From: a virus | Reading direction: 5' to 3' (one strand) | Length of the DNA stretch: 21,280 bases | Virus record (IMG/VR): IMGVR_UViG_3300024512_000149 | Span: 1 to 21,280 of that record | Shown here: positions 1 through 18,713 of the stretch, one piece after another | How the letters are laid out: each line of letters begins with the position of its first letter | Position numbering within the stretch: position 1 is the first letter of the stretch | The notes under the pieces: model-generated | Told to the model about the DNA's origin: nothing | What the model saw: only the letters and a program-made list of their open reading frames with translations | The model's database searches: none | Program-made: the position numbers and the translations under genes

Positions 1-400
1 TGGCGGCGTCGTCGGCTGGCGCGCACTCATAGGCCGCGAGCTCGACGATTGCAGCCGGCGGGCCTTCTGCCGTGAAGCTAACGCCGGGGCCGTAGGATTG
101 CGCCGAGAATCCGAGCACCTTGCGGACGTTGCCCGGTAAGGTAAAGCTGATTGCGTTAGTGCAGCTGATGGTGACTCGGCGCGTCGTGGCGTTGTAGCTG
201 AACTGGTAGAAGCCCGGCAGCGCGTTGTTGCACTCGGTCGCCCAGATCACTAGCGCATCCGTGAACCGTTGTGGCGTGCCCAGGCGGACTTCGCTGGTCG
301 TAGCGCCCTCAGTGACAATGATCGTGTCGTCCACACACAGCGACGGAAACGTGTCGTCCGTCACGCTCTCGCTGTATAGGTACGCCTCAAGCACCGCCAT
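1..400 (-). CDS. Distal tail-region protein of unknown function (C-terminus beyond window)
   Basis: I do not recognise this gene. It opens at an ATG (398-400) that shares one base with the stop of the preceding gene (TGATG), and reads without a stop to the window edge, giving at least 133 residues. The product begins MAVLEAYLYSESVTDD and looks beta-rich, with alternating hydrophobic residues and no obvious membrane segment or signal peptide. A stretch near residues 65-100 (TRRVTISCTNA followed by LPGNVRKVLGFSA) resembles, in spacing, the middle of the upstream 218-aa protein, so the two may share a fold. Being second after the tape measure, it is probably a distal tail or tail-tip component; that is inference from position. 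The complete length and any C-terminal receptor-binding or enzymatic domain are not visible. Confidence 0.75.
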   Translation of the reverse strand, partial: MAVLEAYLYSESVTDDTFPSLCVDDTIIVTEGATTSEVRLGTPQRFTDALVIWATECNNALPGFYQFSYNATTRRVTISCTNAISFTLPGNVRKVLGFSAQSYGPGVSFTAEGPPAAIVELAAYECAPADDAA

Positions 401-1056
401 CAGAGCACCTCGCCGCCGACCTCAAGCGCAACGCGCCACCACAGGCTGTTGACCGGCTGCCGAGTATAGCCCCCGACCGCGACATCGATCCATGTCGCTG
501 TGTGTCGTTGGTACACCCAGCCGCGCCGCGGGTTGCTCGCCAGCCGCAGGATGCTGATCAAGCGCGCGTGCTGCAGCGCGTCACACGTGCCCGACACAAT
601 CGGCCGTCGACCGGCGAGACCTGGCACGCCGGGCCGCACTGCACCCGTTGCCGACGTGACGCCCTCGTCGCCAAGAAACGGCATATCCAACACCGCCGCC
701 AGCACCCCCACAGGCCCCGGCGCCCACGTTCCCGAGGCCGGCGACGTGCCGACAAAGATAGTGCCGACACCTGAGGCAATGCCCAACCGTGCCGTCGCCC
801 CTGCGGACATCGTCAACGTCGCAGCATCGGTGCTGCCGAGCGTCACCTTTGCGCCGCCAGTGGCCACGTCCTGAGACCAGCTCCACCGCCAAAGCACCGT
901 GTCTGCCCAAGGCCTTGCTGCCGCACTGGCCCACGCGACAAAGGCCTGTAGCGTGTCGAACGTCGACCGCTCGGCGTTGGTGTAGGTATCGACGTTGGCG
1001 CCGATCTGCACCGTGATGGTCCAAGCCCACGCTTCGGTTGTTTCGATCGACAGCAT
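400..1056 (-). CDS. Unknown 218-aa protein immediately after tape measure; probable distal tail component
   Basis: No family is recognised. The start ATG (1054-1056) overlaps the tape-measure stop by one base (TGATG), and its stop overlaps the next ATG in the same way, so translation is probably coupled on both sides. The protein is rich in Ala, Thr, Val, Gly and Trp. Its N-terminal half (to about residue 115) looks like a beta sandwich with a VTLGSTDAATLTMSAG stretch and an LGIASGVG segment. Its C-terminal part is more basic and has several Trp residues near the end (NSLWWRVAL). Phages of lambda-like layout place distal tail and tail-tip proteins directly after the tape measure, which is the basis for the tentative role. 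No enzyme motif is seen. Confidence 0.82.
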   Translation of the reverse strand: MLSIETTEAWAWTITVQIGANVDTYTNAERSTFDTLQAFVAWASAAARPWADTVLWRWSWSQDVATGGAKVTLGSTDAATLTMSAGATARLGIASGVGTIFVGTSPASGTWAPGPVGVLAAVLDMPFLGDEGVTSATGAVRPGVPGLAGRRPIVSGTCDALQHARLISILRLASNPRRGWVYQRHTATWIDVAVGGYTRQPVNSLWWRVALEVGGEVL

Positions 1057-3761
1057 CAGGCCGCCTTGCGCCGGTCGTAGCCGGTGCCGTTCACGCTGCG
1101 CAACGTGCCGCTGATGCCCTTGGCAACTTCCTGCGTAGAGCCGACCACAAAACCCTTGTTGAAATTAAACACTTGAGTAACGCCACCACCGCCGCCGCCA
1201 GCCTCGCCGGTTGTGCCAGTGACTGCGCCGCCGCCGCCGGTGGTCGCGCCAGCCGTGGCCGTGCCAGCCGTGCCAGCGCCGCCGGTCGGGATAGCTCCAC
1301 CTGCAACGCCGGCATAGATGGCCGCCGAGGCCGCGTGAGCAATGCCACCGGGGATGTTGCCACCAGCGAACGCTGCCACGCTGGCAGCGGTCTCGGTGAT
1401 GGCGAGGATGGCTGCCTTGGTCTGCTCGTCCTCGATGAATGCGGTAGCAGCCGCGCCACTGGCTGCAATCGTGCCGTCGATAGCGTTGGTCAGCCCTTCG
1501 TTGGCCGTCGCCATCTGCTCGACGTTGCCCGCGTCGGCCGCCTTCTGGAAAGCGGCCAGCGCTTGCGATCCCTTCTGCACATTGCCGACGATACCGGCGA
1601 TACCCTTGCCAAACGATTGCACAGACTTGATGGTTTCTTGCGCTTGCTTGGCTTGGTCTTGCAGGCCCTTGATCTGCTTTTGGTAGATCTTCTCTTGCGC
1701 CTTCACCTGTGCATCGAGGTCGGCGCGGTCGGCCTCGTTAAGGTTGGCCGAGTTTTCCTGCAACGCTTTCAACGCATCGATCGCGTTCTGCTTTGCCTCA
1801 ACAGTTCGCGCAAAGCCAGACTGCACGAGATCGGCGCTGGCTCCCAAGGTATTCTGGATCGCATCGTCGACGGTCGATAGCTTGGTCTTGAAGCTGGCGA
1901 CGATCGCATCGCTCTCTTTGGTGAAGGCTGCGGCTGTAACATCGGCCAGCTTCTGGCGTTCTGCCGCAATCTGCTGGTCAGCAAGCAAGCGCTCCTTGGC
2001 GGCAAGCTCGGACTGTTCGTCGATGCCGGTCAGCTTGATCGCAAGGTCGCGGTTGATCTTTTCGATGTTGGCAGCGGCCTGCGCTTCGGCGGTCTGGATC
2101 TCCAGCATCGTTGCGCCGTGGACATCGCCGCGCTTGCGCAACTGCTCGATCTCGCGGGCGGCCTGCGCCTTCGATAGCTCGTCGATCTTGGCCTGCGTCT
2201 CGATCTCGGCCTGTAGTTCCTCCTCAAACGCGGCGCGCTTCAGCTCGACAACCTTCCGGCTGCGCTCAACCTCGGCATCGGCGGTTGCCTTGCGTGCGGC
2301 CTCGCGCTCGTTGTTGGCGTTCAGTTCTATAGCGCGCAGTTCAGCTTCCCGACCGCGCACGGTGTTTGCACGTTGCCGGGCCGCCCGCGTTGCGGCTGCT
2401 TCCTCTAAATCGATGACTCGGAGGCGGGACGCGAGCACATCAGGATCCGCTCCTGGTACCTTCGCCCGCTGCGTCGCCAGTTGCGATTCGGCCTGCGCCA
2501 GCTTGATGGTCGCGTCCGTCTCGGCTTGAATGCGTTCCTTGTTCTTCGCGGCGGCGGCCTGCTGGCGCGCGACACGATCGGCTTGCGCTTGCTGGAATAC
2601 CGCGGCCTTTGCAGCCTCGGCTTGCGCCTGCTCGATCTGCAGCGCCTGCGCCTTGATGGCGTAGTCCTCCTGCGACAAAGCATTGCGGTTGCGGTAAAGC
2701 GTATTGATGCGCGCCGCGACGTCGGCCAGTCGCTCATCAATCGCTTGAATCCGAATCACCTCGGCGACCGTCTTGCGCTTTTCTTGGGTCGCCGCAATGT
2801 CGAGCAGCGTCGCCCGGCCTTTGGCCAGCGTGCTGTTCTGCTCTGACGCGCGCTGCTCGCGCGCAAGCTGCCGTTGGGCCGCAAGTTCGATCTCCAGCGC
2901 CGTCGCCTTCTGCCGCACTAGGTCAAGATCGCGCTGTTCGCTCTCGCTGATCTGCCTGCCCGTCAATGCGATCGATGCTTGAATCTGCGCCGCTTCCTTC
3001 AACAGCTCAGACTGCTGCACCTTCTGATCAGTCAAGTCGCGTTCGAGCCCAAGCGACTCCCGCGACAGGCCGATAGATGCGCCAAGTTCGCCCAGATTCT
3101 TAATGCCGAGGTTGCCGATCTCAGCTTGCACCGCGATAAGCGCGTCCGGTCCCTTGGCCCATGCGGCAAGGTACTGCTCGACAGCCTTGCTACCGTCGGC
3201 GCCCATAGCCACAGCGCGATCCCGCACCGCGCGCAGCTCTGTCGACGTCGGCCGGATGCCTTGGTCGGTCATCTGCTCGAGCGCCGCGCTTACCTTGATC
3301 GCTGCGTCCTGCGTGATGCCCAGCTGCGCGGCCATGCCTTCCGAGCCAGCACCGCCGCGCATAAACTTGGTTTTAGCTTCGGCCTCGTTGGCCGCTTCGA
3401 TAAACTTGTAGGTCGCCACAGCTAGGCCGGTCATCGCGGCAGCAGCAATACCGATCGGACCCGGTATGACGGTCGCTACCGCGCCCGCAGCCGTGAACGA
3501 CTGGCCCAGCTTCTGCATAATCGGATTGGTACCGCCGAGCACCGCGTTGACTGCCGAAAAGGCGCCGCCGATCTTGCTCGCTGATTGCTGCGCCAGCGTT
3601 GCGAACTTGGCCATCCCGCCGCCGGCATTGGCCGTTGCCGCTTGCGCCGACTTGCCCATGGCGTCGAGCTCGTCGCGAGTCTGCTTGACCACGCGGCTCG
3701 CGTTGCCCTGTGCGTCGACCGCAATCTTGACGTCGACCCGACTTGCCGCAACCGTGCTCAT
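1056..3761 (-). CDS. Tail tape measure protein
   Basis: This 901-aa protein sets tail length and is packed inside the tail tube. Evidence: it is the longest gene of the arm; it lies directly after the frameshifted chaperone pair; most of it (about residues 220-750) is Ala/Glu/Gln/Lys/Arg-rich helix and coiled coil. Two hydrophobic segments occur, at about residues 90-121 and 782-826, followed by a Gly/Thr-rich linker and a short C-terminal tail ending YDRRKAA. I chose the ATG at 3759-3761 because it overlaps the upstream stop as ATGA and has a GGAGG ribosome-binding site about 7 nt before it; an upstream in-frame start at 3812 would add 17 residues but lacks this support. At about 1.5 angstrom per residue, the family rule of thumb, the tail would be roughly 135 nm. 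No lytic-transglycosylase or peptidase motif was seen inside it. Confidence 0.93.
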   Translation of the reverse strand: MSTVAASRVDVKIAVDAQGNASRVVKQTRDELDAMGKSAQAATANAGGGMAKFATLAQQSASKIGGAFSAVNAVLGGTNPIMQKLGQSFTAAGAVATVIPGPIGIAAAAMTGLAVATYKFIEAANEAEAKTKFMRGGAGSEGMAAQLGITQDAAIKVSAALEQMTDQGIRPTSTELRAVRDRAVAMGADGSKAVEQYLAAWAKGPDALIAVQAEIGNLGIKNLGELGASIGLSRESLGLERDLTDQKVQQSELLKEAAQIQASIALTGRQISESEQRDLDLVRQKATALEIELAAQRQLAREQRASEQNSTLAKGRATLLDIAATQEKRKTVAEVIRIQAIDERLADVAARINTLYRNRNALSQEDYAIKAQALQIEQAQAEAAKAAVFQQAQADRVARQQAAAAKNKERIQAETDATIKLAQAESQLATQRAKVPGADPDVLASRLRVIDLEEAAATRAARQRANTVRGREAELRAIELNANNEREAARKATADAEVERSRKVVELKRAAFEEELQAEIETQAKIDELSKAQAAREIEQLRKRGDVHGATMLEIQTAEAQAAANIEKINRDLAIKLTGIDEQSELAAKERLLADQQIAAERQKLADVTAAAFTKESDAIVASFKTKLSTVDDAIQNTLGASADLVQSGFARTVEAKQNAIDALKALQENSANLNEADRADLDAQVKAQEKIYQKQIKGLQDQAKQAQETIKSVQSFGKGIAGIVGNVQKGSQALAAFQKAADAGNVEQMATANEGLTNAIDGTIAASGAAATAFIEDEQTKAAILAITETAASVAAFAGGNIPGGIAHAASAAIYAGVAGGAIPTGGAGTAGTATAGATTGGGGAVTGTTGEAGGGGGGVTQVFNFNKGFVVGSTQEVAKGISGTLRSVNGTGYDRRKAA

Positions 3762-4117
3762 TTGCCCGCCTCCAGTCGCGCCCGCAGCGTCGCAAGACCC
3801 CACGTTAGCCAAGCTGGAAACGCCTCTGGCCAGCCAGCCAACGGGCTGATCTTAGCGCACTCGTGCAGGTTCACCAACGCCCGAAACTGCAGGCCGCGCA
3901 AGACGCCGTAAGGGCACACAGACCAAGCACCGCCCGGCAGCTCCGCGGGTCCGTCCTCGGTCTCTGGCACCTCGTCGCAAGGTCCATGCTCGCAGCGGCA
4001 CAGCCAGACCGCGCGCCGGTAGAATCCCTCTTTGCGCCAGATGCTCAGCAAGTGCGGCAGTGTCGTTGCCCAGGTCGCGGCCTTGCCGTCGATCACGACC
4101 CCGGCAAGTTTCCCCAT
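3758..4117 (-). CDS. Tail assembly chaperone, T-like part, expressed by -1 frameshift
   Basis: This 119-codon frame overlaps the end of the G-like chaperone gene by 25 nt and lies in its -1 frame. A GGGAAAC heptamer in the overlap is positioned so that ribosomes slipping back one base leave the G frame and continue here with LAGVVIDGK. The expected product is a fusion of 144 G residues and 116 residues from this frame (260 aa), close to lambda gpGT (279 aa). The ATG at 4115-4117 could give a free protein, but no strong ribosome-binding site precedes it, so the fusion is more likely the functional form. The T part has four cysteines and one histidine near its middle (CRCEHGPC plus a later CPYG), suggesting a metal site. 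In lambda, G and GT chaperone tape-measure and tube assembly and are absent from the virion. Its stop overlaps the tape-measure start (ATGA). Confidence 0.85.
   Translation of the reverse strand: MGKLAGVVIDGKAATWATTLPHLLSIWRKEGFYRRAVWLCRCEHGPCDEVPETEDGPAELPGGAWSVCPYGVLRGLQFRALVNLHECAKISPLAGWPEAFPAWLTWGLATLRARLEAGK
4073..4107 (-). promoter_or_regulatory. Candidate frameshift-stimulating stem-loop or pseudoknot
   Basis: Directly after the slippery site, TTGCCG (4107-4102) can pair perfectly with CGGCAA (4088-4083) across a 13-nt loop; counting the last C of the heptamer the stem is 7 bp. GGTCG in the loop (4100-4096) is complementary to CGACC (4077-4073) just downstream, which would make an H-type pseudoknot. 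The spacer is shorter than the usual 5-8 nt, so the first pairs may be melted by the ribosome at the pause. Pairing was found by eye; no folding energy was computed. Confidence 0.5.
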
Positions 4118-4539
4118 GTGAGGTCGACGATCGCGCGATAGAGCGGCACGACCAGCGATGCCACCGGGTCGGCGCGAAACTTCGCCGCCGCTTCCCTGTC
4201 GCCGTCGATGTCGACGAGGCCCAGCTCCATGTGCCGCATGATCTGCGCTTCCGGCGCCATGGCTTCGGCCTCTTGGTACTCCAGCCAGCTCAACGCCCGC
4301 ACCCGAAACAGCGTCGCACCGGCCGCCGACTTGGCCTCGTCAAGCGTGACAAAGCACGGATCCAGCGGCGCCGCCTCGGCCTTGTCGAGCTCGGCCACGT
4401 TGTCGCCGACGGCTTTACGCACCCGCGCAAGCTGGGCCGCCTTGCGTCGTGTTGCTGCCTTGGTCTCCAGCGTAACCGCAGGGTCCGCGCTGTAGACAAG
4501 CTGCACGGTTTTTGCCGTGCTGGTAGTCACGATGGCCAT
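4093..4539 (-). CDS. Tail assembly chaperone, G-like
   Basis: This 148-aa, mostly helical, charged protein sits between the tail tube and tape-measure genes, the conserved position of the tail assembly chaperone. The N-terminal 40 residues are Thr/Ala/Lys-rich; the rest contains helix-forming stretches such as FRVRALSWLEYQEAEAM and MRHMELGLVDIDGD. Length is close to lambda gpG (140 aa). The ATG at 4537-4539 has an AGGAG ribosome-binding site about 4-5 nt upstream. The last codons (TGG GGA AAC TTG) contain a -1 slippery heptamer and the gene stops only four codons later, so most ribosomes should make the short form and a minority the longer fusion. Sequence similarity to a named family was not assessed; the call rests on position, length, character and the frameshift arrangement. 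Confidence 0.88.
   Translation of the reverse strand: MAIVTTSTAKTVQLVYSADPAVTLETKAATRRKAAQLARVRKAVGDNVAELDKAEAAPLDPCFVTLDEAKSAAGATLFRVRALSWLEYQEAEAMAPEAQIMRHMELGLVDIDGDREAAAKFRADPVASLVVPLYRAIVDLTWGNLPGS
4108..4114 (-). promoter_or_regulatory. Programmed -1 ribosomal frameshift slippery site GGGAAAC
   Basis: On the minus strand the zero-frame codons are TGG GGA AAC, so the heptamer reads G GGA AAC, the X XXY YYZ pattern in the right register. After a -1 slip the tRNAs re-pair on GGG AAA, and reading continues CTT GCC GGG in the frame of the T-like ORF. It differs only in the last base from the lambda G/GT site GGGAAAG. The zero frame stops shortly afterwards at 4093. Confidence 0.88.
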
Positions 4540-4578
4540 GGGTGCTCCTGGTGGTGCAGGCGCCCCGACCGGGCCAAC

Positions 4579-5979
4579 CTAGGCCAAGCCGATGCGGAAG
4601 ATGCTGTCGATCGGGCAGTTGTCCGAGGTCTCAGCGCCGTTGGTCGAGCTGTCGCCGGTATAGCTGCCAGCCTCGAGTGCAACGGTGTAGGTCTGCGCGC
4701 CGTTGGCGTCGGCGATAGTCGGGGCCGCGCTCACGCGAGCCGCCGGGACCAGCACCGAAAACGACTTGCCAATCGCCGCGCCGACGTACACGCCGAGGCT
4801 GTGGGTCGTGCCCAGCTCGAGCGACGACTGCCACACGTGCGAGCCGATGTTGCCCGCGGCGCCCGCGTCCGAGTAGACGGTATCGCCGTCAGTGTGCGGA
4901 GCCGTGAAGTTGACCGCGATCCGCGGCTTGACCACGCTCACCGCCGACACAGCCTGCGGAGCGCTGTGGCACATGGTCTCGTTGATCGTCGCCTTCCACT
5001 CCATCGTGAGGCCAGCCAGACCACACTTGATCGAGCTGTCGAGGTAGGCGGCGCCGGTCTTGGTGCCGACGAGCTGCGGCGCGCGGGTGTAGCTGGCCGG
5101 AATCTGCAGGCCGCCGAGCGTCTTGTCCATCTGGAAGTCGTAGAAACGGAACGTGAACTCGGCGGTCGGGGTGGCGCCGGGCTCAAGCGTCAGCTTGAAC
5201 GCCTCGCACACAAGGCCGGTCAGGACATAGCAGAACTTCGTGTCGTTGCCAGTCCACAGCGCGGTCAGCGCCACGGGCTGGTCGTTGGTCACCCAAGCCG
5301 ACGCCGTGCCGTAGATGTTGGCGTTGTCGTCGTCGAAGTTGGCAAGCGGCGCCTTGATCGGGTCAAAGGTCGTCATGACGTTGGCGTTCTTGGTCTTGAT
5401 CCAGCCAATGCCCGGCGCCACCGTGCCCGACGTGGCAGCGGCGATCAGCTGGCCGCCAGCGTGCAGCGCGCCGTTCGCCACCTCGATGTTGTTGGCGTTG
5501 GTGCCGGCGGCGACCACAGCGGCGGCGCCGTAGTCCGACACAGACAGGAACGTGCCGCGCCAAAAGTTGGTGTTCTTGTCAGCCAGCGTGGCGCCGGCCA
5601 AGCTGCCGACGTCGCATCCCATGGCGTTGGCGACGAGCACGAGCCACGGCGGGATGACCTCCGCGCCGCTGACCGGGGCCTCGCCCGGATCCTCCGCGGT
5701 CGGGTCGTAGCCGGTCTTGAACGCCTGCAGCGGAACCACAAACGACACCGTGCCCGACCGACGACCCACGATCTTTTCCGGCGCCGCGCCCACTTGGCCG
5801 GTCAGCAGATCAAGCTCGCTGACCTCGGTATTGAAGGTCACCTTGGGCGTGTCGCACAGCAGCGGCCGGAAGTTGTTGGCCGCCAACACGTTGCCGCCAA
5901 AGTTGGCGTCAGGCGTAGTCGGCGTCACGAGGTCCGACTGGATGGCGAACGAGAGAGAGGAATCAGTCCAGTTTGCCAT
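4579..5979 (-). CDS. Major tail (tube) protein
   Basis: This 466-aa protein would polymerise into the tail tube. It is beta-rich with few long helices, begins MANWTDSSLSFAIQSD, and has the hydrophilic, Gly/Thr/Asn-rich make-up typical of tube subunits. It lies between the tail-terminator-like gene and the chaperone pair, the standard siphovirus order. An N-terminal core segment (about residues 40-95, with SELDLLTGQVGAAPEKIVGRR) is followed by a second large region. It is longer than many tube proteins (lambda gpV is about 250 aa), so an inserted or C-terminal decoration domain is likely; the last 100 residues look like a compact beta domain. The ATG is preceded by GGAG about 8 nt upstream. 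A Mu-like sheath can be ruled out only by its make-up and by the absence of a separate sheath-tube pair. Confidence 0.85.
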   Translation of the reverse strand: MANWTDSSLSFAIQSDLVTPTTPDANFGGNVLAANNFRPLLCDTPKVTFNTEVSELDLLTGQVGAAPEKIVGRRSGTVSFVVPLQAFKTGYDPTAEDPGEAPVSGAEVIPPWLVLVANAMGCDVGSLAGATLADKNTNFWRGTFLSVSDYGAAAVVAAGTNANNIEVANGALHAGGQLIAAATSGTVAPGIGWIKTKNANVMTTFDPIKAPLANFDDDNANIYGTASAWVTNDQPVALTALWTGNDTKFCYVLTGLVCEAFKLTLEPGATPTAEFTFRFYDFQMDKTLGGLQIPASYTRAPQLVGTKTGAAYLDSSIKCGLAGLTMEWKATINETMCHSAPQAVSAVSVVKPRIAVNFTAPHTDGDTVYSDAGAAGNIGSHVWQSSLELGTTHSLGVYVGAAIGKSFSVLVPAARVSAAPTIADANGAQTYTVALEAGSYTGDSSTNGAETSDNCPIDSIFRIGLA

Positions 5980-5990
5980 GACGTCGTCTC

Positions 5991-6404
5991 CTAAGCAGGC
6001 CCGGTGAAGGTGAAGCGCACACTGCGCGACATCGACAGCTCGTTGTCCGCGCCCGTGATATTGGCCAGATCCGGCTCAACTTTCAAGATGTCCGTTTGCG
6101 TCGCAATCCAGTCGTAGAGATCGTCGCAAATCTGCTCGGCATCCTCGACCGCCCGCAGGTAGGCGCCCTGCTGGTCAACGTACCAGACTTCAACCAGCGC
6201 CTGCATTTCCCAGTCGGAGCAACCCTGCGCTGGGAAAACGCGCCGCCCTGGGTTGCAGCTCAACAACACCGCTCGGCTACCAAGGTAGGTATGCCGCACG
6301 CCGATCTGAACCTGGTACTTGTCGTCGGTGCCAGCCCGATGCGTCGGGATTAGCGCCTCAATGCGAGCCTTCCAATCGGTGAGGATTTCCGCGCTCGTCG
6401 TCAT
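5991..6404 (-). CDS. Probable tail terminator (tail completion) protein
   Basis: This 137-aa alpha/beta protein lies just before the tail tube gene, where gpU-like tail terminators are found. Its opening helix (TTSAEILTDWKARIEALIP), central strands (ALVEVWYVD) and a later helix (AEQICDDLYDWIATQ) followed by a final strand (SRSVRFTFTGPA) match the general layout of this class, which caps the finished tube and joins it to the head. The ATG overlaps the preceding stop as ATGA (6401-6404). No catalytic motif is visible. The assignment rests on position, size and secondary-structure pattern and is moderately sure; a head-tail connector is the main alternative. Confidence 0.65.
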   Translation of the reverse strand: MTTSAEILTDWKARIEALIPTHRAGTDDKYQVQIGVRHTYLGSRAVLLSCNPGRRVFPAQGCSDWEMQALVEVWYVDQQGAYLRAVEDAEQICDDLYDWIATQTDILKVEPDLANITGADNELSMSRSVRFTFTGPA

Positions 6405-7261
6405 CGACTCGTCCGCAGTGAGTAAAGCGGCCGCTTCGTCGGCGTTGTGTCGCCTGTGTTGTTGGCGTCGTATGCCTTCAGGCCATTGATCACTTTCTCA
6501 AGCTCATCGCCGAAAGCGTAGCGGTACTCGCGCACCAACGTGGCAATGTCGCCGACCAACGCAATGCCCATGTCAGCCAGCACCCAGCGGGCGCCAATCT
6601 GGCCGACCTCAGCAAAGGCCCGCGGCGAAACATAAAGGAATGGCCGGCGGCCAGTCTGCTCAATGGCGTTTCGGATCTTGTCGTTGACCCGGTCGGCGAT
6701 ACCGCGGCAGAAGTCCTCCGACCGCGTCGTTTGGTAGACCGTCGCAAGCAGCTCGGCGATCTCTGGTGCCGTGATGGCAGGCTGCCACAGCCAGCGCACA
6801 CAAGCGGCCTCGGCCGTCGCGAAGCCCTTTGCCGTCGCATTCTCGTAGCGCCACTCGACCTGGTAGCCGGCGCCAAGCGCCGCCAGTCCTAGCGCGCTCA
6901 GGCTGGCCGACATCGTCAGGCCTTTGACCGTGTCATTGTTGGCTGGCGCCACCGGCAGCGCTGCTGCTAGGTGAACGTGCAGTCCATCGATGCGCACCGG
7001 CGTGCAGACGTAGGTCTCGCCGTAGCTAGTCACTGCCAGCGGTTGGCCCACCTTGACGCCGGCGACCGAATCAAGGTCGAGCATCAGCGCCGTGGAGCTG
7101 GCGTTTGCGTGCGTGTTGATCGTCGACAGCGTGACCGCGGGCGCCTGCAACTGGCTGCCGTTGGGCGCCCGCAAGACCACCGTCGCGGCGGTCGGGACAA
7201 GGCCCGACATGTCGGCATGCGTGATCGTCGTCGCTCTGTCGTACAGCAGCTCGATACCCAC
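6401..7261 (-). CDS. Putative head-tail connector / head completion protein, two-part
   Basis: No exact family is recognised. This 286-aa protein is between the major capsid and tail-terminator-like genes, where head completion and adaptor proteins sit. The first half (about residues 1-110) is beta-rich with Thr/Val runs and has a motif-like stretch GQPLAVTSYGETYVCTPVRIDG. The second half is helical, with helices around APEIAELLATVYQ and FCRGIADRVNDKIRNAIEQ, as in adaptor proteins that dock on the portal. The start is a GTG (7259-7261), supported by GGAGG about 6 nt upstream; no nearby ATG fits as well. The unusual size (adaptors are often 100-150 aa) suggests a fusion of two neck functions. 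Its stop overlaps the next start (ATGA). Confidence 0.7.
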   Translation of the reverse strand: MGIELLYDRATTITHADMSGLVPTAATVVLRAPNGSQLQAPAVTLSTINTHANASSTALMLDLDSVAGVKVGQPLAVTSYGETYVCTPVRIDGLHVHLAAALPVAPANNDTVKGLTMSASLSALGLAALGAGYQVEWRYENATAKGFATAEAACVRWLWQPAITAPEIAELLATVYQTTRSEDFCRGIADRVNDKIRNAIEQTGRRPFLYVSPRAFAEVGQIGARWVLADMGIALVGDIATLVREYRYAFGDELEKVINGLKAYDANNTGDTTPTKRPLYSLRTSR

Positions 7262-7279
7262 CGCACACCTCCGCTTGCT

Positions 7280-7318
7280 GGCGGGGGCCGGTGACCGTCA
7301 AGCCGCCCGACCCCCGCC
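7280..7318 (-). repeat. Stem-loop between major capsid and connector genes
   Basis: GGCGGGGG (7280-7287) and CCCCCGCC (7311-7318) form a perfect 8-bp GC-only stem around a 23-nt loop. It begins about 19 nt beyond the capsid stop codon and ends before the next ribosome-binding site. There is no T-run after it on the minus strand, so a classical intrinsic terminator is unlikely; an attenuator, an RNA-processing or stability element, or chance in GC-rich DNA are the options. Confidence 0.45.
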
Positions 7319-7337
7319 GCAAAACCCACCCCGGACG

Positions 7338-8252
7338 TTAGGCCACGTTGCTGCCCACGATGCCGAACTCATACGCCTTCGTGTAGAAGCTCGCCGAGAA
7401 CTGCGCCACGAAGTTGACGAACAGACCATCTTCCGACGGCAGAACGTCAATCATCGGGGGCTCGCCCATCCAGATGCCGCAGGGGCTCTTGACCGTGTCG
7501 ATCAAGAACCAATCGTCGTCATCGGTGGTCAGCGGGAATACCACCGGGGTCGCAAAGCCCTGGTTGATGTTGACCTGAAGCGCGGCCGAGGTGAACTGCG
7601 AGCCGAGCAGCTGGCGCGCAATCTTCTCGTTCTTCGGGCCGACAACCAGCACGTACGACGAATCGCCCATGTTGAGCGGCAAGCCCTGCTGATTCTTGTA
7701 CTTCCGCAGAATCTCGCGCGCGCTGTTGAGGCTGTTCTCCGACAGCGCGTCGGTGAGCAGGTTCGACTGCGTACCGGCGCCGGCTTGACCCTGCAGGAAG
7801 GACAAGCCAGTGTCGATGAACTTTTTGCCGTTGCCGACCTGGCCGTTGTTGGCGCCCGCCATCGGGTGAGCCAACGCAAACAGCGACTCAAGGCCGTCGA
7901 AGTACAGCTTGTTGATGTTCTGCGCAGCGGCGTTGGCCAAGCTGACCGCGATGTCGGTAGCGGCCGACTCCACCAGCCACGGGAGCTGCTGGCGCGGCAT
8001 CCGGTGCTTGAGCGCAAACGCCTTCTGCGTCACAACGCGGATGCCGCTGGTGAGGTCGGTAGCCGAGACGCTGCTGGTGGCGCCGGTCACCTCGGTGGCC
8101 AGACCGCCGGCGTTCACCGCCATCAGCTGGGCCGAGCCGCCGGCGTAGTCCAGCACCTGGCAGCACTGCGCGTACTGCTCGGTAGACGACGCAAGAGCGT
8201 CAACGAAAGCGGCCTGAGAAACGCGGATCAGATTGTCGAGAGAGTTAGCCAT
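7338..8252 (-). CDS. Major capsid protein
   Basis: This 304-aa protein is the probable shell subunit. It follows a scaffold-like gene and shows features of HK97-fold capsids of the Mu gpT-like type: an N-terminal helix (SLDNLIRVSQAAFVDAL), a hydrophobic spine-like helix region with RQQLPWLVESAATDIAVSLANAA, a segment with FDGLESLFALAHPMAG, and a C-terminal strand region ending AYEFGIVGSNVA. The family match is from memory of pattern, not a search. I prefer the second of two adjacent ATGs (8250-8252), because the AGAGGT ribosome-binding site is about 5 nt from it and only 2 nt from the first (8253-8255). A strong GC stem-loop follows the gene, consistent with separate control of an abundant product. 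No protease gene was seen, so the scaffold may not be processed. Confidence 0.85.
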   Translation of the reverse strand: MANSLDNLIRVSQAAFVDALASSTEQYAQCCQVLDYAGGSAQLMAVNAGGLATEVTGATSSVSATDLTSGIRVVTQKAFALKHRMPRQQLPWLVESAATDIAVSLANAAAQNINKLYFDGLESLFALAHPMAGANNGQVGNGKKFIDTGLSFLQGQAGAGTQSNLLTDALSENSLNSAREILRKYKNQQGLPLNMGDSSYVLVVGPKNEKIARQLLGSQFTSAALQVNINQGFATPVVFPLTTDDDDWFLIDTVKSPCGIWMGEPPMIDVLPSEDGLFVNFVAQFSASFYTKAYEFGIVGSNVA

Positions 8253-8266
8253 CATGCACCTCTAAG

Positions 8267-8677
8267 CTAGGCTTGGCCCAGCAAGAAAGAACCCTGCGCC
8301 GCCATCTGCCGGATGCGTTCGCCGAGCTCGCGGCGATCAGACTCGTAGTCCTCGCTCCGCTTGACCCAGACTTCGCAGCCGGTGGGATAGCCGATCACCT
8401 GCTGGAGCCCTTCCAGCTGGATCCAGCCCTTGGCGGCCCACTTGGCCCGCAGCTCGGCTTTGCGGCTTTCCGCCAGCGCCGGGTCAAGCTTGGCCGATGC
8501 CCAGCCAGCAGGCAGGCCCAACACGGTGCCCGGTGCAAGCTCGGTGTACGTCCCTGCCGCCTTACGCGCTGCACGTGCAGCCGCAACTTCCTCGTCAGAC
8601 GGCAGCACCGGCATTGCCGGCCCAACAGGCTCGACCACCGCTGCCACGTCCTTCTCGCCAGTCTTTCGCGTCGCCAT
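8267..8677 (-). CDS. Unknown 136-aa protein between scaffold and major capsid
   Basis: I do not recognise it. The start ATG at 8675-8677 is chosen because GGAGG lies about 6 nt upstream; a longer in-frame version (from 8722) has no such signal. The N-terminus is Ala/Val/Pro-rich and probably disordered (about residues 1-35), followed by a charged helix (SDEEVAAARAARKAAG), a Pro/Gly-rich turn region and a C-terminal helical part (SDRRELGERIRQMAAQGSFLL). The aromatic stretch GWIQLEGLQQVIGYPTGCEVWVK looks like a small folded core. Genes in this position can encode decoration or head-stabilisation proteins, but nothing in the sequence decides this. Confidence 0.75.
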   Translation of the reverse strand: MATRKTGEKDVAAVVEPVGPAMPVLPSDEEVAAARAARKAAGTYTELAPGTVLGLPAGWASAKLDPALAESRKAELRAKWAAKGWIQLEGLQQVIGYPTGCEVWVKRSEDYESDRRELGERIRQMAAQGSFLLGQA

Positions 8678-8725
8678 ATTGGCCTCCGTGCGCAAGGGTA
8701 CACTGCCCCCGCGCGGTTGCAAGGG

Positions 8726-9280
8726 TTAGCGCATCTTGCTGAGGTTGCGCTCGGTCACAAGCGTTGACTTCTTCTCGCCGCTCATCACAGCCCGCAAAGC
8801 ACTGCCGGCCTTGCTCTTGAGGTGCGAAAGCGCATCCGAGACCGGCACCGCCTGCTGCCGCAACAGCTCGGGGTTGTCCTTGGCCCAGTTTTCTAGCGCC
8901 TTGGCGCCCTTGGGATCGCCCGGATCCACCGCCGGCGCAAAGCTGCGGAACTTCTCTTGCACGCCCAGCCGCTCAAGCGCCAGGTTGCGCCGCTCGTCGG
9001 CAAGTTGCTTGCGAGTCTCCTCGATCTGCGACCGCTGCGCCGCGAGCTCCTCCGCGAATTTCTGTTCTGCCGACAGCTTTGCCTTGCGCTCCTCTTCGGC
9101 TTTGGCTGCTGCTTCCTCGCCGGCCTTGGCTGCCGCCGCTTGGCGCGCCTCCTCGGCAGACTTCAGCGCTGCCAGCTCGGCCCTCAGCGCGGCGACGTCG
9201 TCGACCGGCGGCCCGGCTGGTGCTGCTGGTGGTGCCGCTGGTGCGGCGGTAGTAGCTGGTGCGGTGGTGCTTGCGTCCAT
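8726..9280 (-). CDS. Scaffolding-like protein (coiled coil)
   Basis: This 184-aa protein is Ala/Pro/Thr-rich at its N-terminus (about residues 1-26), then forms a long Ala/Glu/Lys/Arg/Gln-rich helix or coiled coil (about 27-105), and ends in a short basic helical C-terminus (LVTERNLSKMR). Phage scaffolds typically have this extended helical character with a basic C-terminal capsid-binding helix, and they precede the capsid gene, here with one small gene between. The ATG (9278-9280) has a GGGAG ribosome-binding site and starts one base after the upstream stop. No protease or signal motif is visible. The call is from composition and place; such proteins diverge too quickly for confident naming by eye. 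Confidence 0.78.
   Translation of the reverse strand: MDASTTAPATTAAPAAPPAAPAGPPVDDVAALRAELAALKSAEEARQAAAAKAGEEAAAKAEEERKAKLSAEQKFAEELAAQRSQIEETRKQLADERRNLALERLGVQEKFRSFAPAVDPGDPKGAKALENWAKDNPELLRQQAVPVSDALSHLKSKAGSALRAVMSGEKKSTLVTERNLSKMR
9211..9270 (-). repeat. Low-complexity Ala/Pro/Thr-coding tract in scaffold gene
   Basis: About 60 bases made of imperfect GCACCAGC/GGTGCTG-type units encode the Pro/Ala/Thr-rich N-terminus of the scaffold-like protein. It is in frame and probably a flexible leader; slippage could change its length. Confidence 0.55.
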
Positions 9281-9281
9281 G

Positions 9282-9929
9282 CTATCTGCTCCCGTCGTAA
9301 TGCTGCAGGATGTCCCGCAGCAGTTGTTGATCGCCCGTCGTCGTAAACGAGCCAGCGTCGGCGCCCAATATGCGACCGACGATTTGCTGTGACCATCGAG
9401 TGACTGCCGCCACCATGGCTTCGGTTTCTTGCTCTTTGGGCTGAATCACGTTCACGCCGGAACGGCTAAATACGGCGCCGGCCTTCTGCTGGTTGCGCAC
9501 CTTAGTCGGTCGCGCCCGCTGGCGCCCGCTTCTGGTCGTCGACTGTTGCACTTGGCTGCCGTAAGAGCTGCCAGCAAAGTCGATCAGGACGCCCGACGAC
9601 CCGACGTTGCGCACCTGTAGACCTTTCCACATTGCGCCAGTGACGCGAAAAGCGCCTTGTTTCGCGCCGATTGCGTCGTGAAATTGCGCCGAACTGCCGT
9701 AGCGTGTTTTTGTCACGCCGAGCGCTCGCGCGTATTCGCTGTTGATCTCATACAGTCCGCGACGCCGCGAATACGGCTTAGCCGGCGTTGCCGTTTGACC
9801 TTGCTTCGACACGCGCTCAACGACTCGACGCGCCAGCGCTTGGCCTAGCACCATCGGCTGTTGCAGTTTCGCCATCAGGCTGGGGTCGGCCTGCGCCGCC
9901 CTCGTGTACCTAACGCGAACCTCGATCAC
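9282..9929 (-). CDS. Unknown 215-aa basic protein after portal; possible head/neck morphogenesis protein
   Basis: No family is recognised with certainty. The start is GTG (9927-9929), overlapping the portal stop as GTGA, so it is probably translated by coupling. The protein is basic, with an N-terminal amphipathic helix (about residues 20-45, LQQPMVLGQALARRVVERV), an Arg-rich KPYSRRRGLYEINSEYARALG segment, and a central beta motif MWKGLQVRNVGSSGVLIDFAG followed by SSYGSQVQQ. That central pattern (a strand, then a V-x-I-x-F strand, then a turn before a Q-rich helix) resembles tail-completion or virion-morphogenesis proteins of the Mu gpG or HK97 gp10 kind. The place between portal and scaffold is instead where minor head proteins are found. 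I leave the role open. Confidence 0.75.
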   Translation of the reverse strand: MIEVRVRYTRAAQADPSLMAKLQQPMVLGQALARRVVERVSKQGQTATPAKPYSRRRGLYEINSEYARALGVTKTRYGSSAQFHDAIGAKQGAFRVTGAMWKGLQVRNVGSSGVLIDFAGSSYGSQVQQSTTRSGRQRARPTKVRNQQKAGAVFSRSGVNVIQPKEQETEAMVAAVTRWSQQIVGRILGADAGSFTTTGDQQLLRDILQHYDGSR

Positions 9930-11308
9930 TGCGGCACCGTTTCAGGCGTCGGCATTTGCTCGGGCGGCAGGACGCCAAGGTCGCGCGACTCTTGCAGGTT
10001 GCGCTTGATCTTGTCGTAGGCCGACTGCCGCGTGATGCCGTCGCGGTCGGCAACGACGTCGACGGGCGACGTGATGCCCTGGGCAATTTCCATTTGCAGC
10101 GCCTGCGACTCATGGAGCGGATCGGCCGGCACCTCGTAGGTCTGGTAGCGCACCTCGACGACCGTATCCGCCGGGATCTGCACGGGCTCCGTCAGGTTCA
10201 GCACCATGGCGATCAGCTGGCACAGCTCGTTTTCGGCGTCGGCAAAGATCGGCTTGTACTTGTCCTTTGCCTGCTCGCGGTCGTTCGCGTCAGCGGCGCG
10301 GGCCGAGGCCGTAACCGCGGTCGCCACCTTCAAAAACGCATCGGGCTGCAGGTCGAACATGGAGCACAGCAGCCGCAAGCGCGACTCGTTCCAGCTAGTG
10401 ATCTGCGCCAGCGGCGGTTGGCCCTGAACGATGGTCAGCCGCGGCGCCGGTGCGGTCGGGTCGGTGTTGACCAGCGCCAAGACGCGGTCGGGGCCGACTT
10501 GCATCTCCTCGACTTGTTGCGCGATCTGCGCATTCTCAAGCACCTTTTGGCCCCAAGCCTGAGTGTGAACCAGCAGCTCGGTATCGGCCTCGCTCAAGCA
10601 AAGCGCGATCTGCATCGACAAGAGCGGCTCATTGACCGGCGAGGCCCAGCGGCCCGGCTGCGGCTGCTCCGCTCGCAACACGATAAGCGGGATCTTACCG
10701 CCAAACGGGTTGGCCGTGCTGTTGCCGTACACCGGCAGCTTCTGGCCGCCCTTCTCGATGTAGATTTCCGAGGCCGACATATGCAGCTCGCCATAAGTGA
10801 CGAAGCCTTCTGAGTAGCCCACCGGTACGGCAAGCTCGACTTCTTCGGCGTGCTGGATGTCGTCAGCCCGCAGCGGGTCGCCGGGTTCCCACTCAACCTG
10901 CCACGGCTCAAACGACAGAATTTTGACCTTGCCGACGCCGTCGGGAAGCACCGCAAGGATCACGGTCTGTTGAACCATTAGCTCGCGGTGCGCCTGGTGC
11001 AACGCCCGGTCGACCTTGCTGGCGCGGTAGACCTCGCGCAGCTTGACGAACGGATCGGCATTGGCTGCTTGTGTGCTAAAGAACCGCCGCACGACTGGCC
11101 GACCATAGAAGCCGGTCAGCTCGTAGGCGTACCGCTGCACCAGCGGCACAAACCGCTCTTGAAGGTTATTGGTGTTCGGGAACACCTTATCAAGCTCGGC
11201 CCGGATCGAGCTGAAGTCGCCGCGTAGGAACTGCGACAACTGCAGCGACTTGTTCTGAAATTTGGTGATGTCCCAGCGCTCGGCGCGCGCCATCGAAAAG
11301 AGCGACAT
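9926..11308 (-). CDS. Portal protein
   Basis: This 460-aa protein would form the dodecameric portal ring through which DNA enters and leaves the head. It lies directly after terminase large subunit, as is standard. Visible features are an N-terminal helical part (about residues 15-60), a wing-like beta region around residues 115-185 (KVKILSFEPWQVEWEPGDP), a central stretch with SMQIALCLSEADTELLVHTQAWG, a long helical crown and stem (about 305-395, with RLLCSMFDLQPDAFLK), and a C-terminal Pro-rich end. Length fits the 400-550 aa family range. The ATG is preceded by GGAGGTGT about 8-9 nt upstream. The stop overlaps the next gene's GTG. A fused head-morphogenesis (Mu F-like) or protease domain is not seen. 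Confidence 0.85.
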   Translation of the reverse strand: MSLFSMARAERWDITKFQNKSLQLSQFLRGDFSSIRAELDKVFPNTNNLQERFVPLVQRYAYELTGFYGRPVVRRFFSTQAANADPFVKLREVYRASKVDRALHQAHRELMVQQTVILAVLPDGVGKVKILSFEPWQVEWEPGDPLRADDIQHAEEVELAVPVGYSEGFVTYGELHMSASEIYIEKGGQKLPVYGNSTANPFGGKIPLIVLRAEQPQPGRWASPVNEPLLSMQIALCLSEADTELLVHTQAWGQKVLENAQIAQQVEEMQVGPDRVLALVNTDPTAPAPRLTIVQGQPPLAQITSWNESRLRLLCSMFDLQPDAFLKVATAVTASARAADANDREQAKDKYKPIFADAENELCQLIAMVLNLTEPVQIPADTVVEVRYQTYEVPADPLHESQALQMEIAQGITSPVDVVADRDGITRQSAYDKIKRNLQESRDLGVLPPEQMPTPETVPQ

Positions 11309-11347
11309 CGGCAGACACCTCCGCGCCTAGTGTACGGCGGCGCAACG

Positions 11348-12727
11348 CTAGCGCAAGTGCGGAGGCACGTTGTCGACGCCGTCGTTGGCGACCGCAAACC
11401 GCCCCGGCAGTTTACCGCCGTGCAGCTCCTTGAACCGTGAACCCGCAACTATGGCGTAACGCAGCGCGTCAACCGCATGGTCGTGCAGGTTGTCCTTGGC
11501 CGGGATGTCGGTCGGGTTGCCGTCGCGGTCGAGCATGTACCGGTAGGCCGCCATGCTCGGCACAATGCCGGCGACGTTGCCGCTGTAGGTCTTGGCCAGC
11601 GAGTGCGCAAACAGTAGCCGCGGCTCGCCAGTCACTGGCGCCAACATATCCTGCACCTGAGCAATACCGCTTCGCACGTACTGGTCGGCCTTGCTCGACA
11701 GCGACAGAACCATTGTGCGGCGAGGGCTGTAAAGTTGACGCAACCACACGTTTTCCTCGGGCACTGCGCGGTCGGCGCTGATCAAGTGCGGCACGCCACC
11801 GCTGCAAATGTGATCGATCCACCGTTGAAGGTCTGCTCGAAAGTGACCGCGGCTTTCGGGCTGGCGCACCAGCTCGTCGCATACTATCCACCGGCCGTCA
11901 GGCATCACTTGGATCGCTACAGCGACCGCGCGATTTAGGCCCCAGTCTACGCCAATCACCCACCTAGCTTCGGGGTGGTGCTTTGCAGACCATGGCACGA
12001 TGTGCCGCGCCTCGCGAAACTCACCATAGATCGCCGACATCGGACGAAGCGCAAGCGCTAGGATCTCCTGCTCGTAGCGCCGCACCGACATCGCGTCTTT
12101 CCAGCTGTCGACGACGTGACGATCAAGGTACGGGTTGTCATAACTGGTTGCGCGGGCAACAAAAAAGTCGGGATGATCCTCAAGTTGCCGATCTCGGAAT
12201 AGCTTGGTGACGCCCCTCAAACCGTTGGGCGAGCTGGCCACCGCGAACGATGGCCGCGGGCACGGCACGCGAATGCAGCTGATCAAGGTCTCGTAGACGG
12301 TAAGCTCGTTCGTCTCAGACCAGCAGATCTCGTCGGCGGCGACCCATGCCAGGTTTTGGCCGCGCAGCTTGTCTACGCGCTCGTAGCCTTGCCAATAGAT
12401 GGTGCTGCCGTTGTGCAGGTAGATCGCCGAATCGTCTGCGCTGTACCGTTTGATCCAGTTGAAGCCGGTAGCGTCGCGCAGGGTCTGCAAGTGCGTTCGC
12501 AGGAAGGGGAGCAAGTTCTTCTTTAGGTCGCGCTCGGTACGGCCGAGCAGTGCGCCGGGACAGCCGGGGTTCACCACGGCCTGCAACAGCGCGTCTAGCG
12601 TCAGCGTCCACGACTTGCCCGCGCCGCGGCCCGCAAGGAAAAAGCGATTGCGGTGAGGCGCCGCAAGAAACTCGGCCTGCTTGCGGTACGGTGCGAACAG
12701 GTCGGCAATGTCGAGCGATACCTGCAT
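11348..12727 (-). CDS. terL: Terminase large subunit (packaging ATPase and nuclease)
   Basis: This 459-aa protein powers DNA translocation into the procapsid and cuts the DNA at start and end of packaging. The N-terminal ATPase domain shows Walker A GRGAGKS (residues 33-39) and Walker B WVAADE (128-133, with the catalytic Glu at 133), then a coupling-type SSPNG (165-169). The C-terminal RNase H-like nuclease domain shows its acidic residues in VIGVDWG (D261), LISADR (D319) and DHAVDALRY (D416/D420). Length is typical. The start ATG overlaps the small-subunit stop by one base (TGATG) and has no strong ribosome-binding site, so translation is probably coupled. Packaging mode (cos or headful) cannot be decided without a terminase phylogeny. 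Confidence 0.97.
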   Translation of the reverse strand: MQVSLDIADLFAPYRKQAEFLAAPHRNRFFLAGRGAGKSWTLTLDALLQAVVNPGCPGALLGRTERDLKKNLLPFLRTHLQTLRDATGFNWIKRYSADDSAIYLHNGSTIYWQGYERVDKLRGQNLAWVAADEICWSETNELTVYETLISCIRVPCPRPSFAVASSPNGLRGVTKLFRDRQLEDHPDFFVARATSYDNPYLDRHVVDSWKDAMSVRRYEQEILALALRPMSAIYGEFREARHIVPWSAKHHPEARWVIGVDWGLNRAVAVAIQVMPDGRWIVCDELVRQPESRGHFRADLQRWIDHICSGGVPHLISADRAVPEENVWLRQLYSPRRTMVLSLSSKADQYVRSGIAQVQDMLAPVTGEPRLLFAHSLAKTYSGNVAGIVPSMAAYRYMLDRDGNPTDIPAKDNLHDHAVDALRYAIVAGSRFKELHGGKLPGRFAVANDGVDNVPPHLR

Positions 12728-13350
12728 CAGCCCACGTCAATTAGGTCGCCGCCAGCGCTTGCCCGCCGAGCTGGCTCGACACCGGCCGGCAGCGGGGCCG
12801 GGTCGCGGATGCCGGTGCTATCGAGCGTGAGCGATAGCGCCACCTGCGGCGTGCCGTCGGGCGATAGCTGGCGCATGCGCTGGTCGGCCAAGTGCCGCGC
12901 CTCGGCAGTGAGCCGAGACATATGCGCCAGGTAGGACGTCGCGTCGACCTCGCCACGTTGATACGCGCCCTCGAGCACCTGCAGTTGCCGCTGCCACATA
13001 ACGGCAGCGTCGGTCGCCGTGATGCCGCGCTCGGCCGCAAGCCGCAGCTCCTCGGTGTCGGGTGCGTCCCGCGGGTCTAGCTTGGCGTGGCGGTCGAGCA
13101 AATAGCTGGCCGCCTTCCAGTCGCGCTTGGCTGCTCGCTCAATCCGCTTCAGCGCCATCAAGCGGTGATAGGCGCGGGCCGCTTCGAGCTCCTCGACGAG
13201 CGCCGGATCCTCGCGTCGCCAGTCGTGGAACGTCGACCGGCATAGGCCCGCGGCTTGGATCGCATCGTGATACGTGGCGCCTAGCTTGAGCGCTTCGACC
13301 AACCGCGCTTTGACCTCCGGTGTTCGAACCGATGGACGTCCTTGCGTCAT
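12727..13350 (-). CDS. Terminase small subunit-like DNA-binding protein
   Basis: This 207-aa protein would recognise the packaging site and deliver DNA to the large subunit. A helix-turn-helix of the homeodomain-like type is visible near the N-terminus (about residues 10-50: EVKARLVEALKLGATYHDAIQAAGLCRSTFHDW in pieces, with the AIQAAGLCRSTFHDW part as the turn and recognition helix). Helical oligomerisation segments follow (about 53-150), then a Pro/Ala-rich C-terminal tail. I chose the ATG at 13348-13350, which overlaps the upstream stop as ATGA; a GTG at 13362 would add four residues. Position directly before terL supports the call. No direct proof of pac or cos recognition is in the sequence. 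Confidence 0.85.
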   Translation of the reverse strand: MTQGRPSVRTPEVKARLVEALKLGATYHDAIQAAGLCRSTFHDWRREDPALVEELEAARAYHRLMALKRIERAAKRDWKAASYLLDRHAKLDPRDAPDTEELRLAAERGITATDAAVMWQRQLQVLEGAYQRGEVDATSYLAHMSRLTAEARHLADQRMRQLSPDGTPQVALSLTLDSTGIRDPAPLPAGVEPARRASAGGDLIDVG

Positions 13351-13553
13351 GGTTTGCCCCACACTGCGGCCAACGTCGCCAACGCGGTGGACTCCGCGAC
13401 TTCTTCTTCTTTAGGTTTGGCAACTTCGCCGCCGTGCAAAGCAAACACGCGGCCGGTGATGACCTCGGCCGCTTTGCGCTCGGCGTCGGCCTTGGGCTGC
13501 CGTGGCCGCGTCCGCGTCGTGTTGATCTCGGTGGCTGGTTTACGTCCCCGCAC
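13347..13553 (-). CDS. Small unknown protein upstream of terminase
   Basis: Not recognised. About 68 aa from a GTG at 13551-13553, which has GAGGA a few bases upstream; an ATG at 13580 would extend it by 9 residues but has no visible ribosome-binding site. Third codon positions are strongly G/C from here to the stop, as in real genes of this arm. The product is Lys/Arg/Glu/Ala-rich, with a basic N-terminus (RGRKPATEINTTRTRPRQ) and an acidic-basic patch (KPKEEEVAE), and ends in a hydrophobic helix (TALATLAAVWGKP). Its stop overlaps the terminase small-subunit ATG (ATGA). It could be a DNA-binding accessory to packaging, but that is only a guess from place and charge. Confidence 0.6.
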   Translation of the reverse strand: MRGRKPATEINTTRTRPRQPKADAERKAAEVITGRVFALHGGEVAKPKEEEVAESTALATLAAVWGKP

Positions 13554-13794
13554 AGATCCTCGCCAAACATCGAAGCGCATTAGCCACGGATTTCCGTGGG
13601 TTGCGCGCTTTGGAAAGAATACCGTCCAAAAAGTGCGGTGGCGTAAGACCCCGCGCCCAGGGCCACCCCGTTAGAAATTGGGGTGGGGCCTTTGCCATCC
13701 GCTTCACATGCCCGTCCAACCGTCCGTGCAGCTGCCAGACCTCAAGAATTGCCCTATTCACAGCCGGCCATCGTGTCCACGGTATCCGCTTCAT
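13540..13794 (-). CDS. Possible small protein of unknown function, first gene of the leftward arm
   Basis: An 84-aa frame begins at ATG 13792-13794 with a GGTGG-like ribosome-binding site and ends just inside the next small gene (14-nt overlap with its preferred GTG start). The product is basic and Trp-rich (MKRIPWTRWPAVNRAILEVW and later GWPWARGLTPPHFLDG), with a helical C-terminal part (KARNPRKSVANALRCLARI). Codon third positions are less biased than in neighbouring genes, so either it is recently acquired or it is not a gene. No family is recognised. An upstream in-frame extension to 13908 looks non-coding. Confidence 0.42.
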   Translation of the reverse strand: MKRIPWTRWPAVNRAILEVWQLHGRLDGHVKRMAKAPPQFLTGWPWARGLTPPHFLDGILSKARNPRKSVANALRCLARICAGT

Positions 13795-13940: not shown

Positions 13941-13986
13941 TTGCTATATACGTAATTGCGGATCGTAATTAGTGTGTGTTTTTAAT
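13941..13986 (+). promoter_or_regulatory. Weak candidate rightward promoter in AT-rich island
   Basis: TTGCGG (13956-13961) and TTTAAT (13981-13986), or TTGCTA (13941-13946) and TAATTA (13966-13971), give sigma70-like pairs, but with 19-bp spacers, longer than the ideal 17. The island is the most AT-rich place in the area and lies upstream of the primase gene. No strong consensus match was found in either direction. Confidence 0.25.
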
Positions 13987-13990
13987 ATCT

Positions 13991-14008
13991 CTCTTTCCTA
14001 GGAAAGAG
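13991..14008. promoter_or_regulatory. Perfect 18-bp palindrome CTCTTTCCTAGGAAAGAG, candidate operator
   Basis: The site is completely symmetric over 18 bp, with no mismatch and no spacer, and sits at the edge of the AT-rich island just downstream of promoter-like sequences. This size and symmetry suit a dimeric repressor or initiator. It would also fold as a hairpin only with a strained loop, and no T-run follows, so a terminator is less likely. Confidence 0.55.
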
Positions 14009-14299
14009 TGTCCCTCTTGTCCCTTCTACAGTCATCCCAGCATCTTACGGGCGACTTTGCCGCCCCGAACCGCGTCCCCGCTGTGTCCTGCGTGTCCCGC
14101 GACGTCCCGCTTGACGCCGTCCTTTGTCGGCTGTAGCGTCCGCATCGACGGTCGCAACCCGTCGCCAGCCACGAGGAGACAGCCTTGCCGACCTCCAAGC
14201 TATCGCCCACGGCATCAGTACGATCCGACGTCGCGTGTCTGTCTCCGCGACTGCCGGTGTTGCGCGTGCTGGTGTCGTGGGCGATGGCAGGAGGCCACC

Positions 14300-16605: not shown

Positions 16606-16949
16606 TGGCAGCCAACTACAATCACCTGACCATCGCCGGCCGCCTCGGCGCCGACGCCGAGAGCAAGACCGCCGCTAGTGGCACTGCCGTTACGCGCCTG
16701 CGCGTTGCGTCGAGCGTGGGCTACGGCGACAAGCAGCAGACCCTCTGGCTCGCGGCCACTGTGTTTGGCAAAAGCGCCGAGTTCGCCGCCAAGCTCCGCA
16801 AGGGCAATGCCGTCCTTCTCGCCGGCCGTCTTGAGCCCAACGTGTGGACGGACAAGCAAGGCATCGAGCGGCGCGACGTTGTTCTGATCGTCGACACCGT
16901 GCAGGCTCTCGGCCCGAAGCAGGCCGCCAGCGACGACGTGCCATTCTGA
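16605..16949 (+). CDS. ssb: Single-stranded DNA-binding protein
   Basis: This 114-aa OB-fold protein coats single-stranded DNA during replication. Typical features are the opening NHLTIAGRLGADAES strand set, FGKSAEFAAKLRKGNAVLLAGRLEPN in the middle (matching the family's lid-and-strand region), the later DVVLIVDTVQALG strand, and the acidic C-terminal tip DDVPF used to recruit partner proteins. The linker between core and tip is very short, so the protein is compact compared with E. coli SSB (178 aa). The ATG overlaps the helicase stop by one base (TGATG), with GGAG about 10 nt upstream. It completes a primase-helicase-SSB module. Confidence 0.95.
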   Translation: MAANYNHLTIAGRLGADAESKTAASGTAVTRLRVASSVGYGDKQQTLWLAATVFGKSAEFAAKLRKGNAVLLAGRLEPNVWTDKQGIERRDVVLIVDTVQALGPKQAASDDVPF

Positions 16950-16960
16950 GGTGACCCAGC

Positions 16961-17926: not shown

Positions 17927-17937
17927 CGGAGGAGTTT

Positions 17938-18680: not shown

Positions 18681-18713
18681 CGCCGCGCCCCGCTTTCCGC
18701 TACCTTCCGGCGC

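Follow-up and report, generated by a model that had tools for sequence, protein, structure and literature searches.

Two overlapping open reading frames (ORFs) of an uncultured phage very probably make up a single recoded tail assembly chaperone gene, in which a -1 slip of the ribosome at the heptamer GGGAAAC, aided by a downstream hairpin, would give rise to a fusion protein of 260 amino acids (aa). The DNA analyzed, called the window throughout, is the whole of the IMG/VR virus record IMGVR_UViG_3300024512_000149 and measures 21,280 bases. As in the lambda G/GT arrangement, the two overlapping ORFs, called G and T here, lie on the same strand between the genes predicted to encode the tail tube and the tape measure protein. 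Listed in the direction of transcription, the features are the following:

4579..5979, minus strand, predicted major tail tube gene, adjoining G on its upstream side
4093..4539, minus strand, G-like ORF (ORF1), 148 aa plus TGA, predicted tail assembly chaperone, short form
4108..4114, minus strand, slippery heptamer G_GGA_AAC in zero-frame register, codons TGG GGA AAC
4063..4107, minus strand, predicted stimulatory hairpin 3' of the heptamer, its inner stem beginning 6 nt after the heptamer
3758..4117, minus strand, T-like ORF (ORF2), 119 aa plus TGA, in the -1 frame relative to G
1056..3761, minus strand, predicted tape measure gene, 901 aa, adjoining T on its downstream side

Organization of the G-T overlap

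In the zero frame, the end of G reads ...CTC ACA TGG GGA AAC TTG CCG GGG TCG TGA. Reading of the minus strand thereby confirmed the heptamer, its register and the identity of the -1 frame with the T-like ORF, all of which had been proposed in an initial annotation made from the letters of the window. The predicted fusion joins 144 and 116 aa into 260 aa at the junction DLTWGN-LAGVVID, and its C-terminal portion consists of T residues 4-119. These lengths, together with that of the 148-aa short form, and the junction TWGN-LAGV were given exactly in that annotation. The 25-nt overlap that it described (4117-4093) holds if the overlap is counted from the ATG of T, a codon peculiar to the window genome, but it is not the full extent, as no stop interrupts the -1 frame over the 247 nt that precede the stop of G. 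Typical translation signals were found around the pair: AGGAG lies immediately 5' of the G ATG, and GGAGG precedes the ATG of the tape measure gene, which overlaps the T stop as ATGA.

Identity of the encoded proteins

When compared to Pfam and PHROG, G, T, the tube and the tape measure protein gave no significant match, and neither G nor T belongs to a named tail chaperone sequence family. The sole near-match of this kind among the G/T members was that of one T to phrog_35384 (tail assembly chaperone; E = 0.066). The AlphaFold2 model of G had a mean pLDDT of 91, and its top two fold matches in the PDB were the HK97 tail assembly chaperone gp13 (2ob9) and YqbN (3klu), which we take to be a prophage tail chaperone. 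With E-values of 0.6 and 1.7 and TM-scores of 0.26-0.39, neither match is significant alone. Against BFVD, most of the named matches were tail assembly chaperones (best E 0.004, best named E 0.015). The modeled fold of G thus weakly resembles that of tail assembly chaperones.

The model of the tube protein was of low confidence (pLDDT 46), and its best PDB matches were the phage tail tubes of SH-Ab15497, T5, DT57C and P74-26, so that the gene upstream of G would resemble a T5-type tail tube. The tape measure protein was predicted from its size, its position and the weak match of its homologue in L007, a related locus, to phrog_339 (tape measure) at E = 0.077. On these grounds G and T are placed after the tube gene and before the tape measure gene, in agreement with the placement initially suggested.

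The T domain carries conserved cysteines (C40, C42, C47 and C68 in the numbering of the window), and C68 and the proline next to it are invariant in 12 loci. This pattern suggests a metal-binding knuckle. Elsewhere in the window, the gene at 7338-8255 (minus strand) encodes a major capsid protein weakly like Mu gpT (Pfam PF10124, E = 9.6e-06); together with the T5-like tail tube, it would make up a mosaic morphogenesis module. A module on the opposite strand (13976-19850, plus strand) encodes a RepB-like primase, a D5_N helicase, an SSB, a PAPS reductase-domain protein and a C5 cytosine methylase.

Conservation of the heptamer among near relatives

Relatives were found by protein searches among viral contigs, one contig of a metagenome-assembled genome (MAG) and whole genomes of the same class. 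The G protein had no match in the phage collection, and the tube protein had none among phages or plasmids. A scan of genomes with the capsid protein found nothing, while the same scan with the tube protein located a single MAG contig. A further search, which covered 379 genomes from the phylum of this contig, yielded none beyond six in its class. Contig 3300024490_000007 (L002, L004 and L013) was rejected as a relative and left out of all counts, as it represents the same virus as the window. Indeed, positions 1-13649 of the window and the start of this contig (27,803 bases) have all 13,649 nt in common; the contig then extends past the left end of the window, the two differing in their contig ends. 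The window is therefore probably a partial genome.

In 12 aligned relatives, the frame of T is -1 relative to G. Seven distinct phage or prophage genomes from separate assemblies (the window, L003, L007, L020, L022, L023 and L043) have T in this frame and GGGAAAC in identical codons, TGG GGA AAC. Relative to the window, G is 61% identical in L003, 45% in L007, 39% in L020, 43% in L022 and 32% in L023, and T is 53-67% identical in five of these relatives and 33% identical in L023. Among near relatives, the slippery sequence is thus kept in register in 7/7. The initial annotation had proposed this very comparison and had regarded genomes keeping both ORFs without the heptamer as evidence against its reading. 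All seven of these genomes retain both ORFs together with GGGAAAC; one further relative, L009, which also has both ORFs, and six more distant loci have other candidate sites, which are described below.

We next consider chance. Eleven further genes predicted in the window contain 3 in-register heptamers of the form XXXYYYZ in 3,752 codon positions, and about 0.07 would be expected by chance in the 82-codon open overlap. This puts a figure on the earlier statement that chance was unlikely, and the conservation across genomes is much stronger evidence. GGGAAAC itself occurs once in the whole window, both strands included. Another in-register heptamer, GGGTTTT, lies around position 1155 within the tape measure gene and was attributed to chance, since it is replaced by GGC TTC in L007 and by GGA TTT in L009; this unconserved string served as a negative control.

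The codon usage at the site was also analyzed. In the tube and G genes, GGA accounts for 1-6 of the 47-57 glycine codons per genome and, when the codon of the heptamer itself is left out, for 7 of 304 (about 2%). The heptamer glycine is nevertheless encoded by GGA in every one of the GGGAAAC genomes, and among 24 invariant glycine columns, only that of the heptamer has GGA in at least two of six genomes.

Access to the T frame

T could in principle be a separate gene with a start codon of its own (the ATG at 4117 or a nearby GTG), perhaps helped by ribosomes that end at the G stop. Overlapping genes are common in phages, a GTG is found 6-11 codons inside T in five of the relatives, and in the window an in-frame ATG lies exactly at the heptamer, where the window alone could start. 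However, this ATG is not conserved. At its position, all six other genomes with GGGAAAC have CTG in the T frame, the threonine codon before TGG being ACA in the window and ACC in the others (serine TCC in L023). Furthermore, we found no Shine-Dalgarno sequence before the T ATG of the window, in contrast to the clear ones before G and the tape measure gene. In L003, the T frame contains no ATG, GTG or TTG within 45 codons, and a separate T start can therefore not be general.

The position of the G stop is informative as well. It comes immediately after the heptamer in four genomes, as TAA in L003 and as TGA in L007, L023 and L043, which places the slip at or before the heptamer. Because of this, and because of the unconserved ATG and the missing Shine-Dalgarno sequence, internal initiation appears untenable as a general mechanism, and the comparison of start codons across the relatives led us to reject it. 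A start of its own would also leave unexplained the invariant rare GGA codon, the full heptamer and the slippery string of L009. Overall, we consider it very improbable that T is expressed in this way. T is thus found in a shifted frame without a conserved start of its own, as in lambda G/GT.

The GGGGA contained in the heptamer might instead be kept because it binds ribosomes that initiate at a GTG 6-8 codons inside T. Such a GTG is found at a suitable distance in L007, L043, L020 and L022, but L003 retains GGGGAAAC without any GTG or ATG downstream, and in L023 the first GTG comes only 11 codons on. Additionally, L009 has GGUUUU in place of AAAC, a change that suits slippage rather than ribosome binding. 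This reading was rejected on the evidence of L003, L023 and L009, and its probability is extremely low. Finally, there is next to no chance that the frame change stems from faulty sequencing, from a mutation or from the decay of a gene whose G and T parts are now unlinked: the window is a metagenomic virus contig, but the arrangement recurs in seven distinct, separately assembled genomes, in which the T frame is intact and T is 33-67% identical, and the two assemblies of the virus itself agree at every one of the 13,649 nt mentioned above.

RNA structure downstream of the heptamer

If the ribosome slips at GGGAAAC, a stimulatory structure would be expected 3' of it, typically at a spacing of 5-8 nt (PMC4066793). 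The 45 nt following the heptamer in the window have a predicted folding energy of -24.5 kcal/mol, which is within the lowest 0.5% of local 45-nt windows. The corresponding values are -23 to -29 in L007, L020, L043 and L009 and -20.5 in L022; folding is moderate in L003 and weak in L023. Averaged over eight genomes, the folding energy within 180 nt on either side is lowest 0-6 nt after the heptamer, a depth that was never equaled in 5,000 random placements. A stable structure is thus predicted near the typical spacing, L003 and L023 being weak when taken individually.

One helix register is common to the window, L007 and L043, and L020 and L022 pair in other registers, so that a single conserved hairpin was only partly borne out. 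Five base pairs show changes on both sides across five genomes, a count that 19 of 500 shuffles equaled or exceeded. Given the energy minimum and the changes on both sides, the hairpin is likely under selection; this is less so for its exact pairing, since the registers of L020 and L022 differ.

Recoding sites in distant relatives

In L009, both ORFs are kept, with G 38% and T 32% identical to those of the window. At the codons of the heptamer it reads TGG GGG GGU UUU, which contains GGGGGGU and GGGUUUU (G_GGG_GGU_UUU). On mammalian ribosomes, GGGUUUU ranks with the strings most prone to shifting (PMC5009743). T is also in the -1 frame in six loci of greater distance (L024, L025, L026, L027, L029 and L046), which have no GGGAAAC and all of which harbor in the overlap a C followed by a proline codon, CCC or CCU (C_CCY). 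Six tetramers count as shifty in Escherichia coli, and C_CCU and C_CCC are two of them (PMC4066793). At the overlap, L025 carries CCCUUUA and L046 carries CCCUUUG, the T frame of L046 becoming open one codon ahead of CCCUUUG. L024, L027 and L029 are three loci of a single genome (G034) and are probably integrated prophages, because they lie on contigs of 100-446 kb.

A different situation is found in L047 (2836-2849) and L048, which have the same bases: G has a run of nine A residues at its end, after which T follows in the +1 (or -2) frame. Here, transcriptional slippage or another kind of frameshift may possibly operate. The sites in L009, in the C_CCY loci and in L047/L048 are candidates put forward from their sequence. 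Taken together, they suggest that related loci keep the recoding even as the slip site is replaced. We tentatively propose, at somewhat less than even confidence, that throughout this phage group (found in prophages of one delta-proteobacterial class) G-T recoding is kept, the site turns over and the mechanism changed in L047/L048. If this is true, the group would provide a natural series for following the evolution of a recoding site inside one gene family.

Proposed mechanism and significance

In our model, the start codon of G (4539) would be the sole site of initiation, and the majority of ribosomes would complete the 148-aa G protein. A minority would pause at GGA-AAC, where the downstream mRNA hairpin meets the ribosome. 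Both tRNAs would then move back by one base, one re-pairing from GGA to GGG and the other from AAC to AAA, after which the ribosome would continue in the -1 frame and yield the G-T fusion of 260 aa. Judging from lambda, the role of the G part would be to cover the tape measure protein and that of the T part to recruit subunits of the tail tube. That slippage occurs, the rate at which it does so and the chaperone function are what we infer from the features described above. Slippage at G_GGA_AAC requires tRNA-Asn to re-pair on AAA, and the frameshift rate in the host could be low, since the efficient A-site codons in E. coli are AAG and AAA (PMC4066793).

By arrangement, the assignment of this gene pair to the lambda G/GT kind appears well supported. 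Two unannotated ORFs without a family match can thus be regarded with confidence as a tail chaperone with a predicted fusion product, and G/GT recoding would extend to a group of phages whose bacterial hosts are poorly sampled. This also adds a bacterial-virus case with AAC in the A site, a codon rated below AAR by the E. coli rules (PMC4066793), and slippage of tRNA-Asn in those hosts therefore becomes testable.

Comparison with known recoded tail genes

The closest parallel is lambda gpG/gpGT, the function and ratio of which have been reviewed (PMC5009743). Both systems have overlapping ORFs between the tube and tape measure genes, use the -1 frame and carry heptamers that are one base apart. 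The initial annotation was correct in noting this single difference from lambda GGGAAAG, but that base matters for efficiency: the lambda site is G_GGA_AAG, whereas the A-site codon here is AAC, and in E. coli sites ending in AAG are efficient and those ending in AAC weaker (PMC4066793). Also unlike lambda, the window has a predicted downstream hairpin and conserved cysteines in T, and its G and T have no detectable similarity to any named chaperone family. The likeness of G to HK97 gp13 (2ob9) and YqbN (3klu) is one of fold only and is suggestive.

P2 E/E+E', with a -1 shift at TTTTTTG, follows the same logic at the same gene position (PMC3091744), but its heptamer is different and no hairpin has been reported for it. 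The heptamer of the window has a precedent in halovirus HCTV-1, for which the shift site of g-t is listed as G_GGA_AAC (PMC5009743). HCTV-1 is an archaeal virus, and it is compared here by heptamer and gene. GGGAAAC at a G-T gene is thus already known from HCTV-1, where the identical heptamer is found at the equivalent gene (PMC5009743).
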